A DNA stretch of 40,683 nucleotides from positions 1-40,683 of IMG/VR virus record IMGVR_UViG_3300046781_000033. The stretch is one strand, 5' to 3'. The notes beneath the pieces are model-generated. The model had not been told where the DNA came from, made no database searches, and worked only from the letters and a program-made list of their open reading frames with translations. This document shows, piece by piece, positions 916 to 5,136 of the stretch; positions within the stretch are counted from its first letter, which is position 1, and each line of letters starts with the position of its first letter. The stretch comes from a virus. Position numbers and translations under genes: made by a program.

Positions 916-1109
916 CCACCTGCGGCAACTCGCGCTGCGGACGCGACTACGACAACACGTCCAGCGGCCGGCACAACCACAAGCTCGTCCACGGCCACGC
1001 ACCGCGGCCCGAGACCCCGAAGCCCGCCGTCGACCCGTTCGCGCTCGACCGGGAGATCCGGGAGCGCGAGGCGGCCGAGCGGGCGCGGCGGACGGGTGGT
1101 GCGGGATGA
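912..1109 (+). CDS. small hypothetical protein, Cys-containing N-terminus
   Basis: A 65-residue ORF starts at GTG 912, overlapping the WhiB stop (GTGA), and ends in an ATGA overlap with the methyltransferase gene. The N-terminus reads VTTCGNSRCGRDY, giving two cysteines five residues apart that could form half of a zinc site. The C-terminal half is charged and probably helical (DREIREREAAERARR). Tight overlaps on both sides support real translation. I do not recognise the family. Confidence 0.65.
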   Translation: MTTCGNSRCGRDYDNTSSGRHNHKLVHGHAPRPETPKPAVDPFALDREIREREAAERARRTGGAG

Positions 1110-2665
1110 GCGCCAATCTGACGATGACCGACCTGTTCTGCGGCGCCGGCGGCAGCTCCACGGGAGCCGTCACCGTGCCCGGCGTGCAGGTCCGTCTCGC
1201 CGCGAACCACTGGGACCGCGCGATCGAGACCCACAACTCCAACCACCCCGACGTCGACCACCTGCAGGCCGACATCTCCCAGACCGACCCCCGGTACATC
1301 CCCGGGACCGACATTCTCTGGGCCTCGCCCGAGTGCACGAACCACTCCCGCGCGAAGGGCCGCAAGGCCGCGCCGAAGCAGGCCGACCTCTTCGGCGACG
1401 TGCTCCCCGACGAGGCGGCCGAGCGGTCCCGGGCGACCATGTGGGACGTCGTGCGCTTCACCGAGGCGCACGAGTACCGCGCCGTGCTCGTCGAGAACGT
1501 CGTCGAGGTCGTCGACTGGTCATCCCCGCGGGGCGTGAAGGGCGGCCTGTTCCAGTCGTGGCTCGCCGCCATGTACGCCATGGGGTACCGGCACCGCATC
1601 GTGTCGATGAACAGCATGCACGCGCAGGCATACGGAGCCCCGGCGCCGCAGTCCCGCGACCGCGTGTACGTCACGTTCTGGCGCGAGGGTGAGCGGGCCC
1701 CGGACTTCGAGCGCATGCAGCGCCCCCGCGCGTACTGCCCGCGCTGCGACGAGGTCGTCGACGCCATGCAGTGGTGGAAGAAGGGCAACGGCCAGACCCG
1801 CCCGGGCCGCTACCGCTCCCAGTACCTCTACCGGTGCCCGAACGCCGCGTGCCGGAACGAGGTCGTCGAGCCCGCGTGGCTCCCGGCGAGCTCGATCATC
1901 GACTGGTCGAACCCGGGCGTCCGGCTCGGCGACCGCGACAAGCCGCTCGCCGAGAAGACCATGCGGCGGATCCAGGTCGGCATCGAGCGGTACTGGTCCC
2001 CGATCCTCGCCGAGCACGGCGGCAACCCGTACGACGCCGCGGACCCGAAGCACCCCGGCTTCGGCAACCCGGAGTCGTACTACCGGGCGTGGCCGATCGG
2101 CGACCCGACGCAGACGATGCACACCCGGGAGTCGAAGGCGCTCGCCTGGCACCCGCTGGCCGTGCCCGTCGAGGGCCGCGAGGGCAAGGTCGCGACGTCG
2201 ACCGACCGGGCGCTGCGCGCGCAGACGACGCGCAACGAGACCGGCCTCGCGTTCCCGCCCCTCGTCGCCGAGCTCCGCGGCGGAGGGTCGACCGCCCGGC
2301 CGGCGCGCGACCCGCTCGCCACCGTCACGGCGTCCGGCAACCACCACGCCCTCATCCACCGGAACAACGGCGGCGGCGCGGAGATGACGACGCCGGCCAG
2401 CGAGCCCATCCGCACCGTCACCACCGCCGGCCACCAGTCCGTGCTGCAGGCCGCGCGCCCCACGCTCGACCTCGACGACGTCCGCTTCCGGATGCTCGAG
2501 CCCGACGAGATCAAGCAGGCGATGGCGTTCCCCGCCGACTACCGCATGGTCGGCAACCGTCGCGAGCAGGTCCGCCTGTCGGGCAACGCCGTCACGCCCC
2601 CGGCAGCGCGGGATCTCGTGGCGACGGTCGTCGCCGCGATCACGGGTGAGGAGGTCGCAGCATGA
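1106..2665 (+). CDS. DNA (cytosine-5) methyltransferase
   Basis: This enzyme transfers a methyl group from SAM to C5 of cytosine and probably protects phage DNA from restriction. Motif I is DLFCGAGGSS (residues 9-18). The catalytic motif IV appears as SPECTNHS with Cys77, a variant of the usual PPCQ. Motif VI is ENV at 130-132 and motif VIII is QSRDR at 182-186. The last conserved block, GNAV, lies near residue 495 before the C-terminal helix. Between the catalytic core and the C-terminus sits a four-cysteine element (C211, C214, C244, C249) resembling a zinc ribbon, in the place of the target-recognition domain. No restriction enzyme partner is next to it, so it looks like an orphan MTase. 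Its last 18 codons before the tail are repeated in the next gene. Confidence 0.93.
   Translation: MSANLTMTDLFCGAGGSSTGAVTVPGVQVRLAANHWDRAIETHNSNHPDVDHLQADISQTDPRYIPGTDILWASPECTNHSRAKGRKAAPKQADLFGDVLPDEAAERSRATMWDVVRFTEAHEYRAVLVENVVEVVDWSSPRGVKGGLFQSWLAAMYAMGYRHRIVSMNSMHAQAYGAPAPQSRDRVYVTFWREGERAPDFERMQRPRAYCPRCDEVVDAMQWWKKGNGQTRPGRYRSQYLYRCPNAACRNEVVEPAWLPASSIIDWSNPGVRLGDRDKPLAEKTMRRIQVGIERYWSPILAEHGGNPYDAADPKHPGFGNPESYYRAWPIGDPTQTMHTRESKALAWHPLAVPVEGREGKVATSTDRALRAQTTRNETGLAFPPLVAELRGGGSTARPARDPLATVTASGNHHALIHRNNGGGAEMTTPASEPIRTVTTAGHQSVLQAARPTLDLDDVRFRMLEPDEIKQAMAFPADYRMVGNRREQVRLSGNAVTPPAARDLVATVVAAITGEEVAA
2597..2650 (+). repeat. MTase C-terminal tail, copy 1
   Basis: These 54 nt encode PPAARDLVATVVAAITGE at the end of the methyltransferase. 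The same 18 residues are encoded at 3118-3171 at the end of the HNH gene. The two copies differ at 10 positions by my count, all at third codon positions. Confidence 0.9.
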
Positions 2666-3183
2666 GGCCGCTCGCCGATCGCTTCTGGGAGAAGGTCAAC
2701 CGCCGCGGCCCGACCGAGTGCTGGCCGTGGACCGCCGCGACGAACGAGCACGGCTACGGCGTCATGAACCCCGGCCGGCACAGCGGGCCGACGATCAAGG
2801 CGCACCGCGTCTCGGCGGAGCTCGCAGGCATGGACATCGCGGGCCGCGCCGTCCTGCACTCGTGCGACAACCCGCCGTGCGTGAACCCCGCGCACCTCCG
2901 GCCCGGGACTCTCGCCGACAACGGCGCCGACATGGCGGCGCGTGACCGCAGCATGCACGGCTCGCGGAACCCGAACTCTCGGCTGACCGAGCCGGAGGTC
3001 GCCGTCATCAAGCGGCTCGTCCTCGAGGGCATCGAGCACCGCGTGATCGCGGCTCGCTTCGACGTCAGCCGCGCGACCGTCAGCTACATCGCCGAGGGCA
3101 AGACCTGGCGTCGAGTCCCGCCGGCCGCGCGCGACCTCGTCGCGACCGTCGTCGCGGCCATCACCGGAGAGGACGCGTCATGA
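2662..3183 (+). CDS. HNH homing-type endonuclease with HTH and captured MTase tail
   Basis: This 173-residue protein has the HNH_3 layout. An N-terminal W-rich segment (ECWPWTAA) is followed by the AHR motif, then LHSCDNPPCVNPAHLRPG with metal and catalytic residues H66, N75 and H78, and the NPNSRLT linker. A helix-turn-helix occupies about 107-150 and ends in KTWRRV, where members of this class usually stop. The extra C-terminus (153-170) copies the methyltransferase tail, so the gene appears to have been inserted at the 3' end of the MTase gene. It starts by ATGA overlap with the MTase and overlaps the next gene by 4 nt. Its likely role is self-mobility rather than a service to the phage (inference). 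Confidence 0.9.
   Translation: MRPLADRFWEKVNRRGPTECWPWTAATNEHGYGVMNPGRHSGPTIKAHRVSAELAGMDIAGRAVLHSCDNPPCVNPAHLRPGTLADNGADMAARDRSMHGSRNPNSRLTEPEVAVIKRLVLEGIEHRVIAARFDVSRATVSYIAEGKTWRRVPPAARDLVATVVAAITGEDAS
3118..3171 (+). repeat. MTase C-terminal tail, copy 2 (inside HNH gene)
   Basis: This is the second copy of the 18-codon methyltransferase tail, fused in frame after the HTH domain of the HNH gene. The amino acids are identical to copy 1 and all nucleotide differences are synonymous. It is probably the displaced original 3' end of the MTase gene, or a copy from a relative, left behind when the HNH gene entered. Confidence 0.85.
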
Positions 3184-3896
3184 GCGTCACCGACAGGCGC
3201 GAGTTCATTCGCCTCGACGTCGGCTACTTCGACAACCCGAAGGTCGGCGAGGCGCTCGACGTCTCGCACGCCGCCGTCGTCCTGCACATCGAGTCGATGA
3301 TGTACGCCCGCCGGCACCGCACCGACGGCGTCGTCCCGGCGAAGCGCGTCATGCGCAAGGTCGGCGCCACCGAGGACGACGCGCAGACCCTCCTCGACGC
3401 CGGCCTCTGGGAGCCGCGCGACGGCGGGAAGATCTACGTCCACGACTACGAGAAGCACCAGGAGACCCGCGAGCAGATCGAGGAGCGGTCGGCAAAGCAG
3501 CGGGAGAAGGCTCGCAAGCGGTGGGACTCCCCTCGGGATGCCAGAGGCAATGCCAACGGCACTCCCGGCAGCAATGCCAGCGGGAATGCAGAGGAGAGTA
3601 GAGGAGAGGAGAGCAGACAGACCCCGCGCGAGGCGCCGCAGCCCGACTTCCAGAACGGCGGGGCGGTGCTCAGCTCGCACGGCATGCCGAAGGCCGAGCA
3701 CGTCGAGTTCATCCGTGCCATGAAGGACCGCGGCATCCGCTCCTGGACGGCGTTCGTCTCCGACGCGCACCGCAAGGGCACGCTCGACGGGCTCATCGAG
3801 GACTGGCGCTCCGAGCGCGACGCCGCGAAGGTCACGCCGCTGTCGAAGAAGAAGGGCCCCGACGTCGGCGTGCAGGAGTGGATGCTCCGTGGCTGA
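3180..3896 (+). CDS. replication initiator / helicase-loader-like protein
   Basis: The 238-residue protein begins with a winged-helix-like region (about 1-95; REFIRLDVGYFDNPKVGEAL, then a GLW at the end of a helix). A low-complexity linker of four-residue units follows (about 119-140), then a C-terminal domain of about 60 residues. Phage replication proteins of this build sit directly before a DnaB-like helicase gene, as here, and recognise the origin or load the helicase (family knowledge by context; no catalytic motif is expected). The linker is encoded by a 12-bp periodic array that may itself be the origin. The gene overlaps the HNH gene at its start and the helicase gene at its end. Confidence 0.72.
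   Translation: MSVTDRREFIRLDVGYFDNPKVGEALDVSHAAVVLHIESMMYARRHRTDGVVPAKRVMRKVGATEDDAQTLLDAGLWEPRDGGKIYVHDYEKHQETREQIEERSAKQREKARKRWDSPRDARGNANGTPGSNASGNAEESRGEESRQTPREAPQPDFQNGGAVLSSHGMPKAEHVEFIRAMKDRGIRSWTAFVSDAHRKGTLDGLIEDWRSERDAAKVTPLSKKKGPDVGVQEWMLRG
3535..3620 (+). other. candidate replication origin (12-bp iterons plus purine-rich tract)
   Basis: Five consecutive 12-bp units start at 3535, 3547, 3559, 3571 and 3583. Four carry AATGC or GATGC at the same offset (for example GCAATGCCAACG and GCAATGCCAGCG); the middle unit (3559-3570) is degenerate. Immediately downstream, 3583-3620 is almost all purine on the plus strand and clearly less GC-rich than its surroundings. An iteron array plus an easily melted tract inside the initiator gene is the arrangement of phage lambda O/ori. 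The origin assignment is inference. The same DNA encodes a G(N/D)A-type four-residue repeat, so a purely protein-level repeat is the alternative. Confidence 0.5.
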
Positions 3897-5136
3897 CACC
3901 CTCCCGGCCGAGCGCGCCCTCGTCGGGGCCTGCCTCCTCGACCCCGCGACGGCCGTCCGGCAGGTCGTCGAGATCGTCACCGAGGCGGACTTCCATAACC
4001 CGGTGCTCGGGGCGCTGTTCGAGCTCGTGTGCCGCCGGTACGCGCAGGGCGATCCGATCGACCCCGTGCTCGTCGACAAGGCGGCACGCGAGGCCGGCAT
4101 CCGGAACGTCAACGCGGCCAACCTGCACGAGCTCGTCAGCGTCGAGAACACCCCGACGGCGTCGAACGCGGCCTACTACGCGAAGCAGGTCGCCGAGCAC
4201 GGCATGCGGCACCGCCTGCGCCTCGCCGGCACGCGGATGCTGCAGCTCGCGGACACCGACGACGACATCGGCATCGTCATGGGCCACGCCCGCGAGGAGT
4301 GGACCGCAATCGCTGGGCAGGCTGCCGGTCGTCTCGACGCGAAGACGCTCGCCGAGGTGCTCGACGGCGACGACGAGTACGACTGGCTGATCCCGAACCT
4401 CCTCGAGCGTTCGGACCGCCTCGTGCTCACGGGTGGCGAGGGCGCGGGCAAGTCGACGTTCGTCCGGCAGATCGCGGTCTGCGCGGCCGCCGGCGTGCAC
4501 CCGACGACCGAGCAGAGCATCGACCCGGTCCGGGTGCTCGTGGTCGACGCGGAGAACAGCGAGAAGCAGTGGCGTCGCGCGGCGCGCACCCTCGTCGTGC
4601 AGGCCCGCCACATGGGCCAGCTCGACCCGGCCGAGGCGCTCCGGCTCGCGTGCGTGCCCCGCCTCGACCTGACGAACGAGCGTGACCTTGGCGCCGTGCA
4701 CCGCCTCGTCGACGAGCACGAGCCCGACCTGCTCGTCATCGGTCCGCTGTACCGGCTCATCCCCCGGGCCATCAACTCCGACGACGACGCCGCGCCGCTG
4801 CTGACCGCGCTCGACGGGCTCCGTGCCCGCGGCCTGGCGCTCGTCATGGAGGCCCACGCCGGCCACGCGTCCGGCGCGAACGGCCTGCGCGACCTCCGGC
4901 CCCGTGGATCCGCCGCGCTCATGGGCTGGCCGGAGTTCGGCCTGGGGCTCCGGCTGCAGGTCGATGACGGGGACCCGACGGTGCGCGCCGAGCTCGTGCG
5001 GTGGCGCGGCGACCGCGACGAGCGCGCTTGGCCGAACCTCATGCGCCGCGGGGGCACCTTCCCGTGGACCGACGACCGCCACGAGCCGCAGCAGCGCTCG
5101 TGGTCACCCGGAGATGCAGCCCGGAGGACGGCATGA
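3889..5136 (+). CDS. replicative DNA helicase (DnaB N-terminal plus RecA-like ATPase)
   Basis: The N-terminal 90-100 residues match the DnaB N-terminal helical domain (AERALVGACLLDP, then a DFHNP motif). A RecA-like ATPase of the AAA_25/RepA kind follows: Walker A GGEGAGKST at about 182-190, an acidic strand VLVVDAEN, and Walker B PDLLVIGPLY near 280-289. RGSAALMGWPEF is the sensor-like segment. It would unwind the fork, presumably loaded by the upstream gene product. The start is GTG 3889, overlapping the upstream stop; it ends in an overlap with the next ORF. At 415 residues it is shorter than host DnaB, as usual for phage versions. Confidence 0.88.
   Translation: MADTLPAERALVGACLLDPATAVRQVVEIVTEADFHNPVLGALFELVCRRYAQGDPIDPVLVDKAAREAGIRNVNAANLHELVSVENTPTASNAAYYAKQVAEHGMRHRLRLAGTRMLQLADTDDDIGIVMGHAREEWTAIAGQAAGRLDAKTLAEVLDGDDEYDWLIPNLLERSDRLVLTGGEGAGKSTFVRQIAVCAAAGVHPTTEQSIDPVRVLVVDAENSEKQWRRAARTLVVQARHMGQLDPAEALRLACVPRLDLTNERDLGAVHRLVDEHEPDLLVIGPLYRLIPRAINSDDDAAPLLTALDGLRARGLALVMEAHAGHASGANGLRDLRPRGSAALMGWPEFGLGLRLQVDDGDPTVRAELVRWRGDRDERAWPNLMRRGGTFPWTDDRHEPQQRSWSPGDAARRTA

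Follow-up and report, generated by a model that had tools for sequence, protein, structure and literature searches.

Mobile open reading frames of fungal mitochondria are known to form hybrid genes, as in Allomyces atp6 and in Glomus atp6, atp9, cox2 and nad3 (PMC3630166). In these genes, an endonuclease ORF in the 3′ part carries a replacement C-terminus, and the native C-terminus lies downstream, is nearer to that of ORF-less relatives and differs from the replacement largely synonymously (PMC3630166). The free-standing homing endonucleases of phage T4 (seg, mob) likewise reside outside introns and inteins and spread by break repair with co-conversion, but they are intergenic, and their cleavage sites lie hundreds to thousands of bases away from where they are inserted (PMC2988022). 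In mycobacteriophage ShiLan, an HNH gene of disjunct distribution lies within a DNA methylase, in another frame (PMC11855218, PMC9957025); the insert opens with 11 residues that resemble the 11 behind the insertion site, a likeness left unexplained, and the insert ends with TAAC, treated there as an intron-like sign (PMC11855218). No description of gene-end replacement by homing endonuclease genes (HEGs) of phages or plasmids was found in the literature searched, which comprised an open-access subset only.

Here we analyse a 40,683-nt (40.7-kb) virus record from IMG/VR (IMGVR_UViG_3300046781_000033), the whole of which we call the window. We consider it very likely that the 3′ end of a phage C5-cytosine DNA methyltransferase (MTase) gene has been invaded by an HNH homing cassette, which carried with it a recoded replacement for the gene end, with cleavage and homing themselves being inferred.

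A methyltransferase tail on both sides of an HNH gene

The features of the locus are as follows.

1106..2665, + strand: C5-cytosine DNA methyltransferase, 519 aa (Pfam DNA_methylase PF00145, 9.9e-26), its 3′ end being the cassette-borne copy
2573..2665, + strand: probable cassette-borne imported segment, comprising an Arg codon (2573-2575), motif X and copy 1, to the MTase stop
2597..2650, + strand: copy 1, the recoded tail PPAARDLVATVVAAITGE, which is the present MTase tail
2662..3117, + strand: HNH endonuclease proper, HNH core plus C-terminal HTH (phrog_826, 6.3e-28)
3118..3171, + strand: copy 2, the displaced native tail of the MTase, now an in-frame extension of the HNH C-terminus (nearer than copy 1 to 15/15 HNH-free tails)
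3172..3183, + strand: last codons of the HNH frame (DAS, then TGA as stop), probably where the MTase used to stop, with an ATGA overlap onto the start of the next gene
3180..3896, + strand: next gene (from the ORF list), presumably the original downstream neighbour of the MTase

The MTase ends in SGNAVT-PPAARDLVATVVAAITGE-EVAA, and the HNH reading frame, which as a whole spans 2662-3183 and whose start ATG overlaps the MTase stop (ATGA), ends in GKTWRRV-PPAARDLVATVVAAITGE-DAS. A codon-wise comparison of the two 54-nt copies shows differences at 10/54 sites, all of them third positions, with 0 amino-acid changes. The first-pass annotation, made from the window alone, had claimed an exact 18-residue repeat of the MTase tail at the HNH C-terminus with 10 third-position differences, and this held; its description of these residues as the last of the MTase needs a small correction, as EVAA still follows them. 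It had also placed the repeat past the normal end of the HNH protein, which held as well: the family ends at (K/R)(T/S)W(R)HV(A), and among nine aligned HNH homologues a long C-terminal extension occurs only in those abutting a gene with the same tail. HNH homologues that always carried this same tail, named as an observation that would refute the proposal, were not seen; the extension is the tail of the host gene and there is no fixed tail. A related virus contig (L004) has the identical layout with diverged copies, and the repeat in the window is therefore not an assembly duplication.

In family profile searches the MTase also matched TIGR00675 dcm (1.9e-22, under the curated cut-off). A GTGA overlap between the MTase and the next gene is present too in the HNH-free relatives L133 and L137. 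The search turned up no empty relative in which the MTase is directly followed by the window's own downstream gene. Upstream of the MTase lies a gene for a WhiB-family transcription factor (598-915; Pfam, 1.8e-16).

Residues H66, C68-N70, N75 and H78 of the HNH protein are invariant in 21 family members, meeting the criterion for an HNH nuclease core (beta-beta-alpha-metal, with conserved His and Asn), and the predicted structure (pLDDT 86) comprises a nuclease core and an HTH. The match to Pfam HNH_3 (0.0022) was under the curated cut-off, the best PDB fold match was weak (I-HmuI 1u3e, E 0.035) and a direct PDB sequence search with the HNH protein gave nothing useful. Site-specific cleavage of the uninvaded allele by this protein is inferred, there being no cleavage or homing assay.

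It could be argued that the C-terminal tail is a functional domain, an MTase helix borrowed for DNA binding or for interaction with the MTase, and not a passive remnant. A helix is indeed predicted by AlphaFold at 157-168, and the tail is unchanged in protein sequence in the window. However, confidence drops to 51-70 toward the end of the model, close HNH relatives stop at WRHVA without any tail, and each extension matches its own neighbour gene and is no common HNH feature, making this reading very unlikely compared with that of a displaced MTase end.

Other classes of mobile element were considered and rejected. For a group I or II intron, the region 1100-3900 matched no Rfam family at E values up to 1; for an intein, the MTase stops before the HNH gene and neither protein matched an intein family. 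Nor is the arrangement that of a T4-type intergenic free-standing HEG, as the insertion sits within what is MTase coding sequence in HNH-free relatives, not between intact genes.

Other replicons and the origin of the two tails

The contig with the identical layout (L004/L134) encodes an HNH protein 70% identical to that of the window, with an MTase tail of PPAARDLISAVVAAITRE and an HNH tail of EPAARDLIACVVEAITGE. On the Streptomyces leeuwenhoekii plasmid pSLE1 (L007), a C5-MTase very unlike that of the window ends in VPPLLAAAVVGAATG, and the adjoining HNH protein ends in WRHVT-VPPLLAAHVVSAATG. Because the HNH proteins of the window and pSLE1 share 53% identity while their MTases barely align (E 0.016), it is likely, though inferred, that the target is a conserved motif and not a gene family.

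In mycobacteriophage SkinnyPete and an Ornithinibacter contig, the second tail lies outside the HNH frame, right after the HNH stop. In the mycobacteriophages and this contig, that stop (TAA) arises where the HNH gene meets the AAC codon of motif X, and the native tail stays untranslated. A scan of viral contigs for the pattern TGGCGNCAYGTNGCGTAAC returned only the known SkinnyPete/TootsiePop loci and chance matches. EvePickles has an HNH gene after the MTase with no visible relic, and is neutral for our reading. In Bradissa (L085), DumpsterDude (L086) and L009, the same HNH gene is followed by an untranslated MTase-tail relic with no MTase upstream; we infer these to be insertion remnants whose left side was later replaced.

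The origin of the tails was assessed in three systems: the window with L004; mycobacteriophages SkinnyPete, TootsiePop and their kin; and pSLE1. The three systems are mutually independent, although the relatives within any one of them are not independent phylogenetically. All 15 HNH-free, single-tailed relatives of the window were nearer to copy 2 than to copy 1, as were 14/15 for L004 and 5/5 for the mycobacteriophages (TChen, Piper2020, Mao1, Sparky and Xavia). For pSLE1, 10/11 relatives favoured copy 2 and one was a tie. The empty tail of TChen matches TootsiePop copy 2 at 54/54 positions and copy 1 at 31/54 (31-32/54 across the empty mycobacteriophage tails), and pSLE1 relative L384 matches copy 2 at 48/48 and copy 1 at 31/48. 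As HNH-free single tails match copy 2 far better in three systems, copy 2 is the displaced native tail and copy 1 arrived with the HNH cassette. The signal from the window by itself is moderate, given a tail of only 54 nt and a closest empty relative by gene body (L133) that matches copy 2 at 49/54 and copy 1 at 44/54; the strong proof comes from the relatives.

In a tree of MTase bodies, the sister of the window is HNH-free L133 (100/98), and that of L004/L134 is HNH-free L137 (90/97); L137 also shares with L004 the same next gene (WhiB-like, 64% identity). A Lys-to-Arg change just upstream of motif X, with CGC as the Arg codon, is common to the window and L004 and occurs in 0/15 empty relatives, all of which (15/15) encode Lys, suggesting that the imported segment begins at this site. 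Shared-derived sites linking the copy 1s of the window and L004 are few, numbering five against a maximum of four in control pairs. These copies are only 39/54 alike, and the two cassettes are therefore old or differently sourced. In SkinnyPete, GC content is 49% in copy 1, 69% in the MTase body and 61% in the HNH gene, a difference that could equally mean a foreign donor as selected recoding; both remain possible.

When an empty gene is laid alongside, the left flank matches to one point, followed by synonymous recoding, and the right flank matches from a second point, so that the cassette junctions can be read to within a few bases. In the window, the left flank equals that of L133 until about 2573, an edge uncertain by about 20 nt; the ambiguity arises from a stretch of 18 nt around GNAVT in which the window and L133 do not differ.

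The mycobacteriophages preserve the same cassette between different flanks. Across the first 1430 nt of the MTase, 73 sites separate SkinnyPete from Awesomesauce, DocMcStuffins and TootsiePop (roughly 90-95% identity with TootsiePop in this early region), whereas the next 1169-1172 nt, through copy 1 and the HNH gene, are identical. This identity ends 9-12 nt beyond the HNH stop (1172 nt and 12 nt for TootsiePop), past which SkinnyPete and TootsiePop differ in copy 2 and the downstream genes. Awesomesauce, DocMcStuffins and TootsiePop are identical to one another over at least 2108 nt before diverging in copy 2 and their downstream neighbours; copy 2 of Awesomesauce and DocMcStuffins was read directly and is not among the tail-match values above. 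Occupied and empty alleles both occur among close relatives and the element is less diverged than its flanks, as expected of a homing endonuclease. The pattern is likely that left by break-induced copying of the cassette into different recipients, with co-conversion leftward, although homing is inferred.

An alternative is duplication in place, in which slippage or unequal crossover doubled the MTase 3′ end locally around an HNH gene that had arrived otherwise, and the copies then drifted. In its favour, the copies in the window are identical in protein sequence, and direct repeats can result from non-homologous insertion. Drift, however, predicts no consistently outgroup-like copy, yet copy 2 is so in three systems; copy 1 is identical in four mycobacteriophages while copy 2 varies with the flank; and the base composition of copy 1 is odd. 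We regard this explanation as very unlikely and already contradicted, and retain that of an imported copy 1.

These comparisons support the proposal of the first-pass annotation that a mobile HNH gene entered the 3′ end of the MTase gene with a replacement tail. Whether the tail was brought or created had been left undecided, and the data favour bringing. The accompanying prediction, that HNH-free relatives should be single-tailed and nearer to copy 2 than to copy 1, passed in all three systems, and HNH-free relatives with both tails, which would have refuted it, were not seen. Fusion of the old tail in frame held in part, being one of two outcomes, the other an untranslated native tail.

Recurrence in other genes

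Members of the HNH family occupied 241 distinct places, narrowed to 196 loci with an upstream ORF. Against a null of mismatched pairs from which homologous pairs were excluded, the end of the upstream gene was duplicated at 12/196 loci, compared with 0.42 expected by chance. One of the 12 above threshold (L105) is a wrong-frame artefact; the high-scoring repeats of L112, L105, L205 and L263 were all discarded as Arg/Pro-rich artefacts of this kind. Genes other than C5-MTases with duplicated ends encode a tyrosine integrase (L113; Pfam, 1.1e-18), a RuvC-like resolvase (L122; phrog_159, 8.2e-35), a protein with a weak transglycosylase match (L306; SLT, E 0.017, under cut-off), a protein of unknown function (L206; phrog_874) and, in L072, a protein of 325 aa that matches no family, with a helicase/N6-N4 methylase (L236, score 50) as a weaker case. 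HNH insertion with a duplicated gene end thus recurs in several genes of phages, prophages and a plasmid, although comparisons identifying the native copy cover the MTase systems only.

An apparent mirror-image arrangement was observed in L304/L058 (IMGVR_UViG_3300005337_000010, about 3410-4200 of L058), affecting the start of a gene called lysozyme-like from its sequence only. The gene start is broken (RFVPDLIHWEGNV) ahead of the HNH gene and regenerated (KFIPDLIRWESSV) after it.

Recombination of modules without homing, in which MTase-HNH blocks are swapped by illegitimate or homologous recombination with the HNH gene as a passenger, might also be invoked. Phage genomes are mosaic, with nuclease genes often at exchange boundaries (PMC10448857), and later recombination is needed for Bradissa and DumpsterDude, which have the HNH gene and tail relic without the upstream MTase. 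Against this, members of one HNH family are found at motif X in each of several MTases whose sequences can hardly be aligned, and at the ends of integrase, RuvC-like and other genes; the boundaries fall at the HNH/copy-2 junction every time, with gene ends regenerated in frame; and the HNH motif residues are invariant in the 21 members, where a dead HNH family would have favoured this rival. We consider it unlikely, and prefer a homing cassette.

A proposed gene-end-replacing cassette and its known parallels

The cassette would consist of a recoded MTase 3′ end with its stop codon and an HNH gene whose start overlaps that stop. Its HNH protein is predicted to nick or cut MTase genes that lack the HNH gene, doing so at the conserved codons of motif X (GNAV-x-PP) some 20 codons short of the stop, and break repair off an invaded copy would then install the cassette, with homology provided on the left by the MTase body and on the right by the native tail. 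For transfer from SkinnyPete, the right boundary of the inherited copy 1 and HNH gene is predicted at AACGCGGTCAC. The recipient MTase would be completed by the synonymously different tail of the cassette (copy 1), and its own tail (copy 2) pushed behind the HNH gene, as an in-frame fusion in the window or elsewhere as an untranslated relic. Insertion would split the target; recoding of copy 1 probably avoids recreating the site and probably suppresses cassette loss by recombination between the copies. We infer that copy 1 is recoded because the same protein is needed without being a substrate for cutting or a recombination partner of copy 2. The whole MTase reading frame is retained, but MTase activity and homing at present are inferred, as is expression of the hybrid gene, for which there are no transcript data; the earlier claim that MTase function is preserved during homing stands to that extent.

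In sequence, the locus resembles the fungal mobile ORFs in that two copies of the host-gene end flank the HNH gene, the downstream copy being native and the upstream one foreign. In contrast to LAGLIDADG or GIY-YIG ORFs of fungal mtDNA, however, the present cases are HNH-HTH proteins of phages, prophages and a plasmid, their stop and start codons overlap, and the displaced tail is either fused to the HNH protein or untranslated. The cassette differs from T4 HEGs in lying inside coding sequence and restoring the gene end. The HomeR synthetic home-and-rescue gene drive is alike in logic only, placing a nuclease in a conserved gene together with a rescue, but is an engineered CRISPR system in flies without homology (PMC7968924).

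On direct comparison, the methylase and HNH sequences of ShiLan gp65 (L188) both differ from the present ones, and its insertion is internal, with in-frame read-through and no end of the MTase before the HNH gene. Its insert start KPSYEPVCVAVKP resembles NTAFEPIVVARKP behind it, and by the same logic could possibly be a partial replacement flank. Given this unexplained end-repeat (PMC11855218) and the fungal precedent (PMC3630166), the first-pass description of the arrangement as little described was fair.

This is very probably a novel prokaryotic version of a mechanism already established for fungal mitochondria, and there is evidence that the strategy recurs; cleavage and homing are inferred. 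A bolder reading, towards which we lean by a narrow margin, is that HNH homing cassettes of prokaryotes constitute a general class of mobile elements that replace gene ends. Their targets would be catalytic motifs conserved close to those ends (MTase motif X, the integrase Tyr motif, RuvC-like and others, perhaps including 5′ ends as in the lysozyme-like gene), with the rescue end selected for recoding against self-cleavage and repeat-mediated loss, and displaced native tails marking past invasions.

The locus shows how an endonuclease gene without an intron or intein can occupy a coding sequence without destroying it, by bringing its own recoded gene end. This would explain why, in several actinophages, an HNH gene directly follows a methyltransferase gene, and it may account for the end-repeat of the ShiLan insert. 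It ties phage HEGs to the mobile ORFs of fungal mitochondria and provides a natural parallel to rescue-type gene drives, and the displaced tail supplies a sequence signature for past insertion sites and for proposing HNH target sites.
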